From Oscillospiraceae bacterium (lineage in GTDB: Bacteria; Bacillota; Clostridia; Oscillospirales; Ruminococcaceae): 41,762 nt of DNA. Every line of letters begins with the position of its first letter. Position 1 is the first letter of the stretch. This document shows positions 17,290-28,018 of this stretch, in pieces. Made by a program: the position numbers and the translations under genes. The notes beneath the pieces were generated by a model, which did no database searches, was not told the DNA's origin, and saw only the letters and a list, made by a program, of their open reading frames with translations. Location: positions 1 through 41,762 of the forward strand of contig JAKSPL010000020.1 of assembly GCA_024404815.1 (NCBI GenBank), given 5' to 3'.

Positions 17290-17574
17290 TCAGTCGTTGT
17301 CCCAATGCTTCAAGATGCGAATGAGGTCAGGCAGAATCTTGGTTTCATCGGGAGCGGCGATCTTGCCTTCCGAGATGCGCTCGACTGATCCACACAGCGC
17401 ATTGAACAGCCGCTCCAGTTTCTTTTCGTGCTGTTCGCGGCTTTCATCGCTGACCTCTCGCGGTGCGGTGAACTTGGAATCCATTGCGCTGCGGAGATAG
17501 CTCCACTCGACCTGCCCCATCTCGCTCATGGATTCGATGATTTCATCAATCGTGGGTTTTGCATGCGTTTTCAT
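17290..17574 (-). CDS. possible internal start giving a separate 94-residue protein
   Basis: Inside the triple-HTH frame, ATG 17574 follows AGGAGGAAACCCAA, a much better ribosome site than most in this prophage. The product (MKTHAKPTIDEIIESM to ILKHWDND) would be a compact helical protein. An old stop codon between domains may have been lost, or both forms may be made on purpose. Same frame as the longer product. Confidence 0.4.
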   Translation of the reverse strand: MKTHAKPTIDEIIESMSEMGQVEWSYLRSAMDSKFTAPREVSDESREQHEKKLERLFNALCGSVERISEGKIAAPDETKILPDLIRILKHWDND

Positions 17575-18228
17575 TTGGGTTTCCTCCTCTCTGGTTGTTG
17601 GTTCTTTGCCGAGCAGTTCCGAAACGGTCACTCCGAAGTATACGGCGATTTTTTCAAGAATTGCATAATTCGGAAAATTACCGTGTTTACCCCAGTCACC
17701 GATGGCATTGACATTCAATCCCATTTTAGAAAGGAAGTCTTTCTGTGAAATGCCTTTCTCTGCAATTAGGAATTTCAGGTTTTCAATGAACTTCCTGTTC
17801 GGCTTTTCTTCCTCGAAGAAATACGACGGCTCAACTCCGAGCGCTTCGGCAAGGCGAGGGATTTTTTCAGCATTAGGATGAGTCGTTCCAGATTCCCACA
17901 TCGAAATACAAGATTTATTGACTTCGCATCTTGCGGCGAGGTATTCCATTGTCCATCCAAGATCAAGCCGCCTGCGCCGAATCTTTTCTCCGATTACCGT
18001 ATCAAGGACAGAATCATCAACAGCAATTTCGCTTTTGCCGAGCAGATAATCGACAGATACACTAAAGTAGTTTGCAATGCGCTGGAGCGTGTCGCCGCCT
18101 GGAATTGTCCCACGTTGTTCCCAATTTAAGAATGAGTTTGTTCCAAGGTTTAAGTCTCTCAGCATTTTATTTTTTGTGATTCCACGAGTTTTTATTAGGC
18201 TTAATACTCTTTCTAAAAATGAAGTCAT
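17290..18228 (-). CDS. regulator with three XRE-type helix-turn-helix domains
   Basis: This is a 312-residue protein with ATG at 18228 after GGAGCTGAG. Three XRE domains follow each other: residues 1-66 (ending DTLQRIANYFSVSVDYLLGK), about 75-135 (IRRRRLDLGWTMEYLAARC), and about 140-200 (ending ILEKIAVYFGVTVSELLGKE). The first closely resembles the domain of the repressor gene at 18668. The last 94 residues form a different helical region that begins with its own ATG at 17574, preceded by a perfect AGGAGG at eight bases. This suggests a gene fusion or a second product. It is probably the first or second leftward early gene and a Cro-like or antirepressor-type control protein. Confidence 0.8.
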   Translation of the reverse strand: MTSFLERVLSLIKTRGITKNKMLRDLNLGTNSFLNWEQRGTIPGGDTLQRIANYFSVSVDYLLGKSEIAVDDSVLDTVIGEKIRRRRLDLGWTMEYLAARCEVNKSCISMWESGTTHPNAEKIPRLAEALGVEPSYFFEEEKPNRKFIENLKFLIAEKGISQKDFLSKMGLNVNAIGDWGKHGNFPNYAILEKIAVYFGVTVSELLGKEPTTREEETQMKTHAKPTIDEIIESMSEMGQVEWSYLRSAMDSKFTAPREVSDESREQHEKKLERLFNALCGSVERISEGKIAAPDETKILPDLIRILKHWDND

Positions 18229-18487: not shown

Positions 18488-18516
18488 TTGACTTTTTTAC
18501 TCTGGTATGCTATACT
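18488..18516 (+). promoter_or_regulatory. rightward promoter for the repressor
   Basis: TTGACT (18488-18493) and TATACT (18511-18516) are separated by exactly 17 bases. An imperfect palindrome CTCT-GGTATGCTATAC-TAGAG covers 18500-18520, so a repressor could sit on the -10 region. Transcription would run into the gene at 18668. Confidence 0.75.
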
Positions 18517-18525
18517 AGAGAAAAG

Positions 18526-18574
18526 AAGAATAATATTCTTTACTCTAGTAAGATTTTAGCACGAAATCTTACTA
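18526..18574. promoter_or_regulatory. operator palindromes between face-to-face promoters
   Basis: AAGAATAATATTCTT at 18526-18540 is a perfect odd-length palindrome. TAGTAAGATTT (18546-18556) and AAATCTTACTA (18564-18574) form a perfect 11-base inverted repeat. The latter covers the -10 of the leftward promoter. TACTCT(A/G)GTA occurs twice (near 18499 and 18541). Confidence 0.7.
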
Positions 18575-18615: not shown

Positions 18616-18645
18616 TGCACAAAAAAGTTGCACAAACATTGTGCA
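18616..18645. promoter_or_regulatory. operator-like TGCACA half-sites before the repressor gene
   Basis: TGCACA at 18616-18621 and 18629-18634, and the inverted TGTGCA at 18640-18645. The last two form TGCACAAACATTGTGCA, a perfect 7-3-7 inverted repeat just before the repressor RBS. Likely an autoregulatory site. Confidence 0.5.
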
Positions 18646-18667: not shown

Positions 18668-19120
18668 ATGTTCTGGAACAGATTTTTTGAATTGTGTGCA
18701 TCTGTAAAATTAAAGCCAAATAGAGTTGCTTCAATAATCGGCGTATCGTCTGCATCTGTTACAAAATGGAAAAATGGTACTATTCCAAACTCTGATACAT
18801 TGCTTAAAATCGCAGACTACTTCGCCGTATCGGTTGACTACCTCCTTGGCAAAACGGATGACCGCTTTTATTGCGATGAACATATGCTTGACATTTTGAA
18901 TGAACAGGACGATGACACTTTACAGAAATCTCCACACAATCTGCTCGAAATGCAACGAATGAAACGTGAAAAAGACGAACAGGCACAAAAAAAGCAGCCC
19001 ACTGAAAAGCAGGCTGCTGCGATTAACAAGATAAAGAATATGTCACCTGATGAACTGCAACAGGCGGAGGTATTCCTCGATTTCATCATCAGTAAGCGTG
19101 AGGATCCTGTCGATGAGTGA
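18668..19120 (+). CDS. CI-like phage repressor (XRE family, no peptidase domain)
   Basis: This 150-residue protein starts at ATG 18668 after AAAGGAGGG. Residues 1-65 form an XRE helix-turn-helix (VASIIGVSSASVTKWKNG, then DTLLKIADYFAVSVDYLLGK). A charged linker and a C-terminal helix (MSPDELQQAEVFLDFII) follow, probably for dimerisation. It is the only rightward regulator gene and faces the leftward early genes, as CI does. No LexA/CI-type serine protease domain is present, so RecA-driven self-cleavage is not expected and induction must work another way; see the SOS-box gene opposite its 3' end. Confidence 0.85.
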   Translation: MFWNRFFELCASVKLKPNRVASIIGVSSASVTKWKNGTIPNSDTLLKIADYFAVSVDYLLGKTDDRFYCDEHMLDILNEQDDDTLQKSPHNLLEMQRMKREKDEQAQKKQPTEKQAAAINKIKNMSPDELQQAEVFLDFIISKREDPVDE

Positions 19121-19138
19121 TTGAATGCGTTCTTCCAT
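19043..19138 (-). CDS. candidate SOS-controlled 31-residue peptide antisense to the repressor end
   Basis: ATG 19138 lies seven bases after GGAGGAA (19152-19146) and opens a 31-codon frame ending in TGA at 19043. The peptide MEERIQSLIDRILTLTDDEI continues with about ten more residues ending in LLQFIR; it is an amphipathic helical sequence. A consensus promoter on the same strand (19216-19188) and a LexA-type box (19166-19177) lie directly upstream. The gene overlaps the last 78 bases of the repressor gene on the opposite strand. Its second half resembles the repressor's own C-terminal helix. A role as anti-repressor, by antisense RNA or by peptide binding, is inference. Confidence 0.6.
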   Translation of the reverse strand: MEERIQSLIDRILTLTDDEIEEYLRLLQFIR

Positions 19139-19165
19139 TTTGCAATTCCTCCGTTTCACAATATA

Positions 19166-19177
19166 GAACATTTGTTC
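19166..19177. promoter_or_regulatory. LexA (SOS) box GAACATTTGTTC
   Basis: GAAC-N4-GTTC matches the Bacillota LexA/DinR core. It is flanked by TATA on both sides, extending the symmetry. It covers about +4 to +15 of the leftward promoter at 19188-19216 and also touches the -10 of a weaker rightward promoter (TTGCAA 19140-19145, TATAGA 19162-19167) toward the integrase. Confidence 0.7.
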
Positions 19178-19187
19178 CTATAATTCC

Positions 19188-19216
19188 AGTCTAGCATATT
19201 TTTCCGTTATTGTCAA
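19188..19216 (-). promoter_or_regulatory. leftward promoter of the 31-codon antisense gene
   Basis: On the minus strand TTGACA (19216-19211) and TAGACT (19193-19188) are separated by exactly 17 bases. The predicted start near 19181 precedes the LexA box, the RBS and the 31-codon frame. Confidence 0.7.
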
Positions 19217-19230
19217 TACCAGGTTCATGT

Positions 19231-19252
19231 GATGTGCAATATACTGCACATC
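19231..19252. promoter_or_regulatory. palindrome GATGTGCA-N6-TGCACATC before the integrase
   Basis: A perfect 8-base inverted repeat shortly upstream of the integrase RBS. It contains the same TGCACA/TGTGCA half-sites as the repressor leader (18616-18645) but in the opposite arrangement. It may bind the same regulator or form an mRNA hairpin that limits integrase translation. Confidence 0.5.
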
Positions 19253-19281: not shown

Positions 19282-20316
19282 ATGAAGCCAAAATGCAAAC
19301 ACCGCCTGCGCCTATCTATCGGACAAGGTGCTGACGGCATCTACCACTACAAATCATTCACAGGCTACGGCGACACGCCTGCACAGGCTCGGAAAGACGC
19401 AGAACGGTTGTCCCGTGAATGGCAGGTACTGCATAAGTCGGAGAAACACGGCTCGTCTATGACACTCGCTGATGCGTATGCTGCGTATATTGATTCCAAG
19501 CGCAATGTGCTGTCACCGTCAACGATTGCGAATTATATTCGCATGGCAAAGACGAACGTGCCGCAGCTCATGCCTATGCAGCTCGACCACATCACACAGG
19601 CAGACATCCAATGCGCAATCAATGCCGAAGCCGCGAACCACAGCCCGAAGACCGTGCGGAACATCCACGGACTACTCTCCGCTGTCCTGCGGATGTATGC
19701 ACCGGGCATGAGATTAAACACAACACTCCCAAAGAAAATCAAACACGAGATATATGTGCCGTCGAACGAAGACATCGAAAGGCTGATTGCCTGCGCTGAC
19801 GAGCAAGCGAAGAAAATTATCATCCTTGCTGCGATTGGTTCACTGCGGCGCTCTGAGATCTGTGGACTGACATCAGAAGACATCGACGGAAACATGATAA
19901 CGATCCGCAAGGTAATGGTGGTTTCGACACAAGGCGGATACTGCATCAAGAACGCGCCGAAGTCGGATGCAGGGTATCGTATAGTGACCATGCCGCAAGA
20001 AGTAATGCATCTGCTTGTTCCATCTGGAGATACTGATCGGATAGTCGGAATCAATCCACAAGGAGCATACAAGGCTTTCAAACGTTCGTTGCGTGTTGCA
20101 CATCTTCCTGACTTTCGGCTGCACGATCTTCGCCATTACCAGGCGTCGATTCTTCACGCGCTCGGCGTCCCGGACAAATACATCATGGAACGCGGCGGCT
20201 GGAAAACTGATTCAACCCTGAAAAACGTATACCAGCACACTATGGACGAAAAACGAAAAGAAGTAGAAGATTCCATATGCGATTTCTTCTCGGATAAATT
20301 CAAAGATGTGCTGTGA
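19282..20316 (+). CDS. int: phage tyrosine integrase
   Basis: This is a 344-residue protein; ATG at 19282 after AGGAGGTG. It has an N-terminal arm-binding region (HYKSFTGYGDTPAQARKDAE), a SAM-like core-binding domain (about 55-150; LADAYAAYIDSKRN, LSPSTIANYIR), and a catalytic domain with the first arginine in GSLRRSEICGL, the HDLRHYQAS box with H-x-x-R, the GGWK tryptophan and the nucleophile tyrosine in KNVYQHT. All catalytic residues are present. It catalyses integration and excision at the tRNA 3' end found 66 bases after its stop. Confidence 0.96.
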   Translation: MKPKCKHRLRLSIGQGADGIYHYKSFTGYGDTPAQARKDAERLSREWQVLHKSEKHGSSMTLADAYAAYIDSKRNVLSPSTIANYIRMAKTNVPQLMPMQLDHITQADIQCAINAEAANHSPKTVRNIHGLLSAVLRMYAPGMRLNTTLPKKIKHEIYVPSNEDIERLIACADEQAKKIIILAAIGSLRRSEICGLTSEDIDGNMITIRKVMVVSTQGGYCIKNAPKSDAGYRIVTMPQEVMHLLVPSGDTDRIVGINPQGAYKAFKRSLRVAHLPDFRLHDLRHYQASILHALGVPDKYIMERGGWKTDSTLKNVYQHTMDEKRKEVEDSICDFFSDKFKDVL

Positions 20317-20381
20317 ATTATGACACGTTTTATGACATGGAATATAAAATAACGTAAAAACAAGACAATACATCTGTATTT

Positions 20382-20409
20382 ACGGGTTCGAATCCCGTAT
20401 GCTCCACCA
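20382..20409 (+). other. attachment site: tRNA 3' fragment (T arm, acceptor, CCA)
   Basis: ACGGG-TTCGAAT-CCCGT (20382-20398) is a complete T arm, followed by the acceptor 3' strand ATGCTCC, a discriminator A and CCA. No D or anticodon arm precedes it; the bases just upstream belong to the prophage end. This is the host tRNA 3' end left behind by integration, so the intact tRNA should lie at the far left end of the prophage. The exact core length cannot be seen. Confidence 0.85.
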
Positions 20410-27427: not shown

Positions 27428-28018
27428 TTAGTCTTTCTGACCGAGCGGCCAGATCTTGAAAAGTACATGACCGACAATCTGATCTTCTCCGACACAGCCG
27501 ATGGCAGCGTTTCTGCTATCCACAGAAGTTGCGCGGTTGTCGCCGAGGATGAAGAATTTATTATCGGGAACTTGGTACGGGAATTCCATTTCGCAGATAC
27601 CAAGACTTTTCTCTATGACATACGGTTCATCGAGCCGCTTGTCGTTGACATATACATTGCCGTCCCCGTCGATATTGACGGTGTCGCCCGAAACTGCAAT
27701 GATCCGTTTGAGGAGCAACTTGTTCTGCCATGAGATGCAGCACAGGTCGCCGTAGGAACATTTCGAGGAGGATGACAATACGAGAATATCGCCGTCTTTC
27801 AGAGTCGGCTCCATGCTGCTGCCCGAAACCTGAATGAACGGGAAGAACAGCGTTGCGAGCAAAACTGCGATGGCAGCAACAACGATGAGGGTTGCGATCG
27901 TACTGATCAGCGTTTGACGAAACAGCTTTTTGTGCTTGATTTTCTGGATCTCGCCCTCAACCTGTTCAACGCTTGGAACGGTGATTGGATTTGTTTCCTG
28001 ATTTGGCATAGTTTTCAT
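27428..28018 (-). CDS. signal peptidase I of the pilus operon
   Basis: This is a 196-residue protein; ATG at 28018 follows AGGAAAG and lies inside the end of the coiled-coil gene. A single membrane helix (about residues 38-60) precedes the catalytic Ser box SGSSMEPTLKDGD. The catalytic Lys is in LLLKRIIAVSGD, and the family box GDNRATSVDSR is present. Type I signal peptidases free secreted proteins from the membrane. Here, as in other pilus loci, it may be dedicated to the pilins or act as a chaperone, but all active-site residues are intact, so activity is expected. Confidence 0.93.
   Translation of the reverse strand: MKTMPNQETNPITVPSVEQVEGEIQKIKHKKLFRQTLISTIATLIVVAAIAVLLATLFFPFIQVSGSSMEPTLKDGDILVLSSSSKCSYGDLCCISWQNKLLLKRIIAVSGDTVNIDGDGNVYVNDKRLDEPYVIEKSLGICEMEFPYQVPDNKFFILGDNRATSVDSRNAAIGCVGEDQIVGHVLFKIWPLGQKD

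Follow-up and report, generated by a model that had tools for sequence, protein, structure and literature searches.

A putative LexA-controlled antirepressor microprotein gene facing the 3' end of a CI-like repressor gene in an Oscillospiraceae prophage

Many phage repressors are short and do not cleave themselves, so that the way in which the corresponding prophages sense DNA damage often goes unexplained. In ImmA/ImmR-type systems, a non-cleavable repressor is inactivated by a neighbouring protein, an anti-repressor protease. Here, we analyse a stretch of 41,762 nucleotides (nt) from an Oscillospiraceae bacterium (assembly GCA_024404815.1, contig JAKSPL010000020.1; hereafter, the window), which contains one end of a prophage. 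In this prophage, the gene of a CI-like repressor without a peptidase domain is faced by a LexA-type promoter and an open reading frame (ORF) of 31 codons, whose product, a microprotein where the ImmA/ImmR type has a protease, is likely an antirepressor.

The Gifsy prophages of Salmonella encode the LexA-controlled antirepressors GfoA/GfhA/GftA, and the Gifsy repressor and antirepressor elute at sizes consistent with an A2B2 complex (PMC3121763), a precedent for binding and not for mimicry. Tum of coliphage 186 (146 amino acids (aa), nearly twice the size of the Gifsy antirepressors) and AntC of N15 are likewise described there as SOS-regulated antirepressors (PMC3121763), and small proteins that inactivate a partner CI are represented by the TF-smORF modules (PMC10432266) and Qtip (PMC11323111). 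The window locus resembles the Gifsy systems in its short repressor without a cleavage domain and in its small putative antirepressor under LexA, an arrangement that would allow induction without repressor cleavage (PMC3121763); at the sequence level, both the LexA-box promoter and the peptidase-less partner repressor of the Gifsy and Tum kind are present. It differs in the size of the product, 31 aa against roughly 75 aa in Gifsy (PMC3121763) and 146 aa in Tum, of which one half is DinI-like. It also differs in position: the Gifsy gene lies outside the immunity region, whereas the window gene faces and overlaps the repressor gene, and the parts of the accounts available to us do not describe Tum or AntC as antisense to the repressor gene (PMC3121763, PMC10432266). 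With TF-smORF and Qtip it shares a small protein of little or no homology for which the partner CI is the proposed target, but those systems are switched on by a phage transcription factor independently of DNA damage, whereas the window unit has a LexA-type promoter. In the antirepressor literature covered, mostly its open-access part, we found no report of an SOS microprotein gene that faces and overlaps a repressor gene. No homology to known antirepressors was found through PHROGs, the GfoA and Tum sequences not having been compared directly.

A sequence-only reading of the locus had listed a TTGACA-17-TAGACT promoter, a LexA box, the sequence GGAGGAA, a 31-codon frame and an overlap of 78 bases with the repressor gene, and each of them is found exactly where it was placed; the list was nevertheless incomplete, since a terminator inside the repressor gene had been missed. 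The elements and the repressor gene are as follows.

19211..19216, minus strand: −35 hexamer TTGACA of the leftward SOS promoter (from sequence)
19188..19193, minus strand: −10 hexamer TAGACT, with TG in front and a 17-nt spacer to the −35 hexamer (from sequence)
19166..19177, no strand assigned: LexA-type box GAACAAATGTTC (GAAC-N4-GTTC), at about +5 to +16 relative to the expected leftward start
19146..19152, minus strand: ribosome-binding site (RBS) GGAGGAA, its GGAGG ending 9 nt before the ATG (from sequence)
19043..19138, minus strand: 31-codon ORF MEERIQSLIDRILTLTDDEIEEYLRLLQFIR with its ATG at 19138, putative SOS antirepressor microprotein (from the ORF list)
18987..19018, minus strand: intrinsic terminator, stem 19018-18993 followed by a T-run, inside the repressor coding sequence (from folding)
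18668..19120, plus strand: CI-like repressor of 150 aa with a helix-turn-helix (HTH) domain at residues 15-59 and the C-tail AAINKIKNMSPDELQQAEVFLDFIISKRED (from ORF, Pfam and PHROGs)

Leftward transcription would be expected to start at about 19181. Promoter, box, RBS, ORF and terminator form a closed unit of ~195 nt, and 78 of the 96 nt of the ORF are antisense to the repressor gene. The terminator stem folds with −17.4 kcal/mol (z −3.0) and stands out alone, the RNA structure of the whole leftward unit being not unusual (z −1.5). As had been claimed from sequence alone, the repressor lacks a self-cleaving peptidase: its Pfam matches comprise a Cro/CI-type HTH only, without the S24 domain that characterises self-cleaving CI proteins of the lambda type. 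In the genome (84% complete), S24 matches are confined to host LexA and to positions 27671-27838 of the window. The latter match, which has sortase and Cna-B genes nearby and lies past the inferred end of the prophage, is probably the signal peptidase of a surface-protein locus.

We read the locus, with a probability of roughly 0.6, as a DNA-damage switch in which a LexA-controlled antirepressor microprotein acts on a repressor without a peptidase domain. Host LexA, bound to the box at 19166-19177, would keep the leftward promoter silent, and RecA-prompted self-cleavage of LexA would allow the synthesis of an RNA of ~195 nt that extends from about 19181 to 18987 and ends at the terminator inside the repressor gene. 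Translation of this RNA would yield a 31-residue acidic peptide able to pair with the repressor. The peptide would most likely imitate the C-terminal tail of the repressor and spoil the repressor oligomers, and the disabling of the repressor would release the lytic side. Transcription, translation, repressor binding and the tail-mimic mode are thus all predictions for this locus.

One key question is whether LexA of this host recognises the box. On its own, the box says little, because two copies occur in the window against 0.77 expected, and it was dropped as proof of LexA control; genome-wide, 47 sites were counted against 39 for the reversed pattern. The composite of promoter and box occurs once in the window against a mean of 0.0 in 300 dinucleotide shuffles. 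Of 396 family genomes, 109 contain it, and of 391 class genomes, 125; the reversed-pattern control matches in 4 genomes and in 1, respectively (both control counts were read from the result tables by eye; three family matches of the composite were left unread, and 30 class matches were used as loci). In the genus, the composite precedes ORFs resembling Y-family polymerases at L280 and L285, judged by eye, and at L288, where a fragment matches Pfam IMS with E 2.2e-7. Host LexA itself carries HTH and S24 domains. A perfect box was sought at the lexA and recA loci and is absent from them; these genes were rejected as regulon references, the polymerase promoters of the genus were used instead, and the LexA regulon is accordingly deduced from other genes. 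A LexA-type box class in the genus is credible on these grounds, and LexA binding at 19166-19177 is predicted. The genome has a second SOS promoter (L008; G000:C6:18050-18099), which drives an 80-aa protein without a Pfam match, followed by a sigma-70 region 4-like protein; judged by eye, ORFs of 84-97 aa resembling this protein follow SOS promoters elsewhere in the genus (L278, L282, L284, L286, L287 and L289).

The main evidence for the layout is its recurrence next to unrelated repressors. We pooled 288 distinct SOS-promoter sites, of which 125 came from viral contigs, 129 from the family and 30 from the class, together with the window, L008, L030 and L161; 109 of them came from the first viral scan, which yielded at least 120 matches and does not amount to a census. 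A site was counted as convergent when its SOS promoter faced an HTH gene whose 3' end lay between −60 and +250 nt. By this measure, the HTH profile used first yielded 20 convergent sites among the 288 (16 viral, 1 from the family, 0 from the class and 3 from the remaining four) against 67 of 7905 random positions. Because this profile had been seeded partly from case loci, a broad profile was retrained on 342 HTH ORFs from loci without a convergent case; it identified 21 of the 288 sites. For the first viral scan it classed 14 of the 109 sites as convergent, as compared with 54 of 4554 random positions on the same fragments (p 2.7e-10). Promoters without a box converged on an HTH 3' end in 1 of 129 cases with either profile. 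A narrower independent profile, which detected fewer HTH genes, gave 3 of 109 for the same scan against 21 of 4554 random positions.

The convergent sites are further distinguished by what follows the box. An RBS-preceded ORF of 25-60 codons starting 8-60 nt from the box is present at 17 of the 21 convergent sites and at 22 of the 267 other SOS sites, and the first viral scan shows a well-placed small ORF in 11 of its 14 convergent sites. No rows were dropped from the count of 17 of 21; relative to the first profile, the retrained one adds L068 and L088, both without the ORF, and loses L197, and L129 is counted with an ORF. In an earlier set of 18 loci (21 convergent HTH cases minus L077 and L129, in both of which the HTH 3' end lies at +211, and L211, where it lies at +389), the ORF was found in 17, with 30-53 codons and a start at +16 to +39, as compared with 7.8% of control placements beside 206 other HTH genes. 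Four loci (L192, L194, L197 and L200) came from scans that required an RBS-like stretch; without them the count is 13 of 14, and without the window as well, 12 of 13. In 10 of the 18 loci, a terminator is located at or within the antisense 3' part of the repressor gene; the corresponding figures are 9 of 59 for other HTH genes and 13 of 400 for random ORFs. L065, whose stored stretch ends before the HTH, enters no count as a convergent case. L087, L117 and L200 are related, and L096 duplicates L093. In the L087/L117/L200 subfamily, the 27 codons outside the overlap give dN/dS (nonsynonymous/synonymous divergence) pairs of 0.149/0.642, 0.165/1.336 and 0.157/0.360; dN is below dS in all three, the direction expected of a translated gene, though with few sites. 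An antisense gene in such a position, which the sequence-only reading had taken for a novelty, is thus not unique, about 17 similar loci having been found.

The relatives of the repressor itself present a more mixed picture. A single-sequence query of IMG/VR returned no close homologues, and relatives were collected with an alignment (A1) from the best 80 + 80 loci, 146 of which were distinct and long enough. L161, from another genus of the same family, has a repressor N-terminus 63% identical over residues 1-67 and shows the whole layout: TTGACA-17-TACAAT, box and RBS precede an ORF of 50 aa that runs antisense to the 3' end of the repressor gene, and a terminator lies within that gene. Just past its SOS promoter, L161 also has a second, larger HTH repressor-like gene (2026-2889), so that the unit stands between two repressor-like genes.

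As for the peptide, it is acidic (8 acidic and 4 basic residues, counted by eye) and not membrane-spanning in appearance; its amphipathic moment is not unusual (p 0.235). A variable linker followed by a C-terminal tail of the type 'lfxxLsxeexxxvlxfixfl' is found in many of these repressors, and the window peptide can be placed in register with this motif (LTDDEIEEYLRLLQFI beside MSPDELQQAEVFLDFI of its own repressor); over an ungapped stretch, 8 of 28 residues are identical (p 0.002 by shuffling). In a comparison with 52 unselected tails, p <= 0.017 is reached by 6 of 15 peptides (window, L161, L060, L087, L093 and L118; 60 shuffles each), and the mean scores are 32.3 forward, 30.1 reversed and 28.9 shuffled. 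When a profile of 24 non-partner tails is used and each peptide is compared with shuffles of itself, 7 of 16 peptides reach p <= 0.03 (window 0.030, L161 0.000, L060 0.025, L093 0.005, L118 0.000, L152 0.020 and L192 0.030). The resemblance is not a mere by-product of antisense coding, since the overlap with the repressor gene is just ~32 nt in L118 and ~23 nt in L152, and L060 has none. Such a peptide may bind the repressor C-tail or compete with it. Among ten such peptides searched against PHROGs, the best match (E 0.011) was to a functionally uncharacterised family, and two parallel peptides searched for in named phages gave no match.

Several results weigh against an antirepressor microprotein. 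The window peptide has no Pfam match; its best PHROGs match (E 0.098) is to a family of unknown function; no homologue was found in 29 other genomes of the genus; and a search of its own genome returned, apart from itself, one match of E 0.36 inside a 650-codon frame. The layout accounts for 1 of 129 SOS sites from family genomes and 0 of 30 from class genomes. Among the 146 relatives, a perfect box near the repressor 3' end occurs in 2, with ~0.6 expected by chance, which means that this repressor lineage does not carry the module as a constant component; L029, the nearest relative by identity (69%), has no box, and L030 (1985-2080) and L065 (1080-1200) keep promoter, box and terminator and have no ORF. 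Resemblance to the own repressor's tail reaches p < 0.05 in just 3 of 16 peptides (window, L087 and L118); own-tail mimicry by pairwise score was rejected as a general rule, and the weaker claim of resemblance to such tails in general was adopted for this reason. Even there, 9 of 16 peptides show no resemblance in the 24-tail profile, whose tails had been selected by eye because they show the motif, and the window peptide scores 4.0 against it when reversed and 6.2 forward. The proposal of a LexA-linked antirepressor made from sequence alone holds for the LexA link, which the anatomy and the recurrence of the layout support; the role of the product goes beyond these observations, and most relatives lack the box.

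Could the RNA rather than the peptide be the active product? The SOS transcript itself would then lower repressor synthesis, either because it pairs with the final ~130 nt of the repressor mRNA or through convergent transcription. The leftward transcript would indeed overlap this mRNA by ~130 nt and end inside it, the position of the terminator at the end of the repressor gene or within it in 10 of 18 loci fits such a role, and L030 and L065 have an SOS promoter and a terminator with no ORF. The well-placed RBS and ORF in 17 of 21 loci speak for a translated product, as does dN below dS in one subfamily; at L060 and L083 the terminator straddles the repressor end and leaves a short overlap, and a pool of pre-made repressor protein would be expected to outlast an antisense RNA. 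On balance, we regard this explanation as unlikely.

A different role of the box is suggested by the opposite strand. The sequence-only reading assigned the box to the leftward promoter, which stands, and did not consider possible control of the integrase, towards which a second promoter-like site, absent from its list, is directed.

19155..19184, plus strand: promoter-like TTCACA-18-TATAAT, which scores 11/12, contains the LexA box within its spacer and faces the integrase (from sequence)
19282..20316, plus strand: tyrosine integrase (from Pfam)

The box overlaps this site by sequence match, and LexA could mainly block it and release the integrase for excision under SOS, the leftward ORF being incidental. 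The integrase ATG follows 97 nt past the end of the rightward −10 hexamer, and the score of 11/12 is the highest in the reverse direction among the 288 SOS sites, 270 others being lower (4 reach 10) and the 17 other convergent sites scoring at most 9. A perfect TATAAT in the reverse direction also occurs in L030, L092, L192 and L197; a recombinase-like gene, recognised by eye, is the immediate neighbour on that side in L030, L092 and L192 and the second gene in L197. Nevertheless, the strength of the rightward site is peculiar to the window. Across the 18 convergent loci the leftward side is constant, whereas the gene on the other side varies (recombinase-like, a second HTH gene or others), and integrase control would leave an intact leftward promoter, RBS, ORF and terminator without explanation. 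Control of the integrase as the main function is therefore, in our view, distinctly improbable. We give equally little credence to a dual arrangement, in which one LexA box gates two overlapping divergent promoters, for the microprotein on the left and the integrase on the right: it draws on the same support as the antirepressor and the integrase readings, but a rightward score of 11 is found in the window alone and is not general to the layout. Finally, an SOS-induced peptide with another target, such as a toxin or a host regulator, that merely adjoins the repressor gene would suit the 9 of 16 peptides without tail resemblance, but is very unlikely given the acidic, not membrane-spanning look of the window peptide and the enrichment of SOS sites beside repressor 3' ends, which points to the repressor as the target.

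Returning to the antirepressor microprotein, a broader and more tentative proposal, to which we would give less than even odds, is that the locus belongs to a class of gene-embedded SOS antirepressor microproteins (~30-53 residues) that recurs in phages with a GAAC-N4-GTTC box, probably phages of Bacillota, and that has apparently not been described. Such genes would run counter to the 3' end of the repressor gene, in many cases overlapping it, and their products would imitate the C-terminal oligomerisation tail. Here, one box might also gate the integrase, and repressor inactivation and excision would then start together. The layout offers a concrete answer to how prophages with non-cleavable repressors could sense damage, as well as a search rule, namely, a LexA-type promoter facing a repressor gene 3' end; ORFs so short and antisense to annotated genes are easily overlooked by annotation. 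If the tail-mimic mode is correct, a 31-residue peptide switches off a repressor by copying its oligomerisation end. The layout, which recurs in other viruses, may be how such prophages wake upon host DNA damage.

Two further arrangements were noted beside repressor 3' ends. The stretch from box to terminator is identical in L030 and L065 and predicts an SOS-controlled RNA of ~50 nt that faces the repressor 3' end. In L032 (G006), past the repressor stop at 1830, a convergent TTGCAC-17-TATGAT without a LexA box precedes an RBS and an ATG ORF (MANADKAAQIERIILKLK...) antisense to the repressor end; this promoter is weak, was read by eye and lies below the scan threshold, and the locus may represent the same layout with another trigger.

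The prophage genes are divided between the two strands. Minor capsid, terminase, primase, helicase and Sak4-like genes (Pfam/PHROGs) lie on the minus strand, and the lysogeny side on the plus strand consists of the CI-like repressor, the tyrosine integrase and then a sequence resembling a tRNA (transfer RNA) 3' end. The other features of this region are as follows.

17290..18228, minus strand: regulator of 312 aa that contains several HTH domains and belongs to the divergent, lytic side (from Pfam and PHROGs)
18513..18550, no strand assigned: 15-nt inverted repeat TACTAGAGAAAAGAA / TTCTTTACTCTAGTA, 93% complementary, between the divergent promoters (from sequence)
20381..20409, plus strand: tRNA-3'-end-like sequence 3' of the integrase (single copy in an incomplete genome)

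The sequence at 20381-20409, where a whole tRNA was sought and not found, is likely the end of the predicted attachment site, and the inverted repeat at 18513-18550 is a likely candidate for the repressor operator. In addition, palindromes of the TGCACA type are present at 19231-19252, before the integrase, and at 18629-18645, before the repressor gene, and could possibly represent a shared operator.
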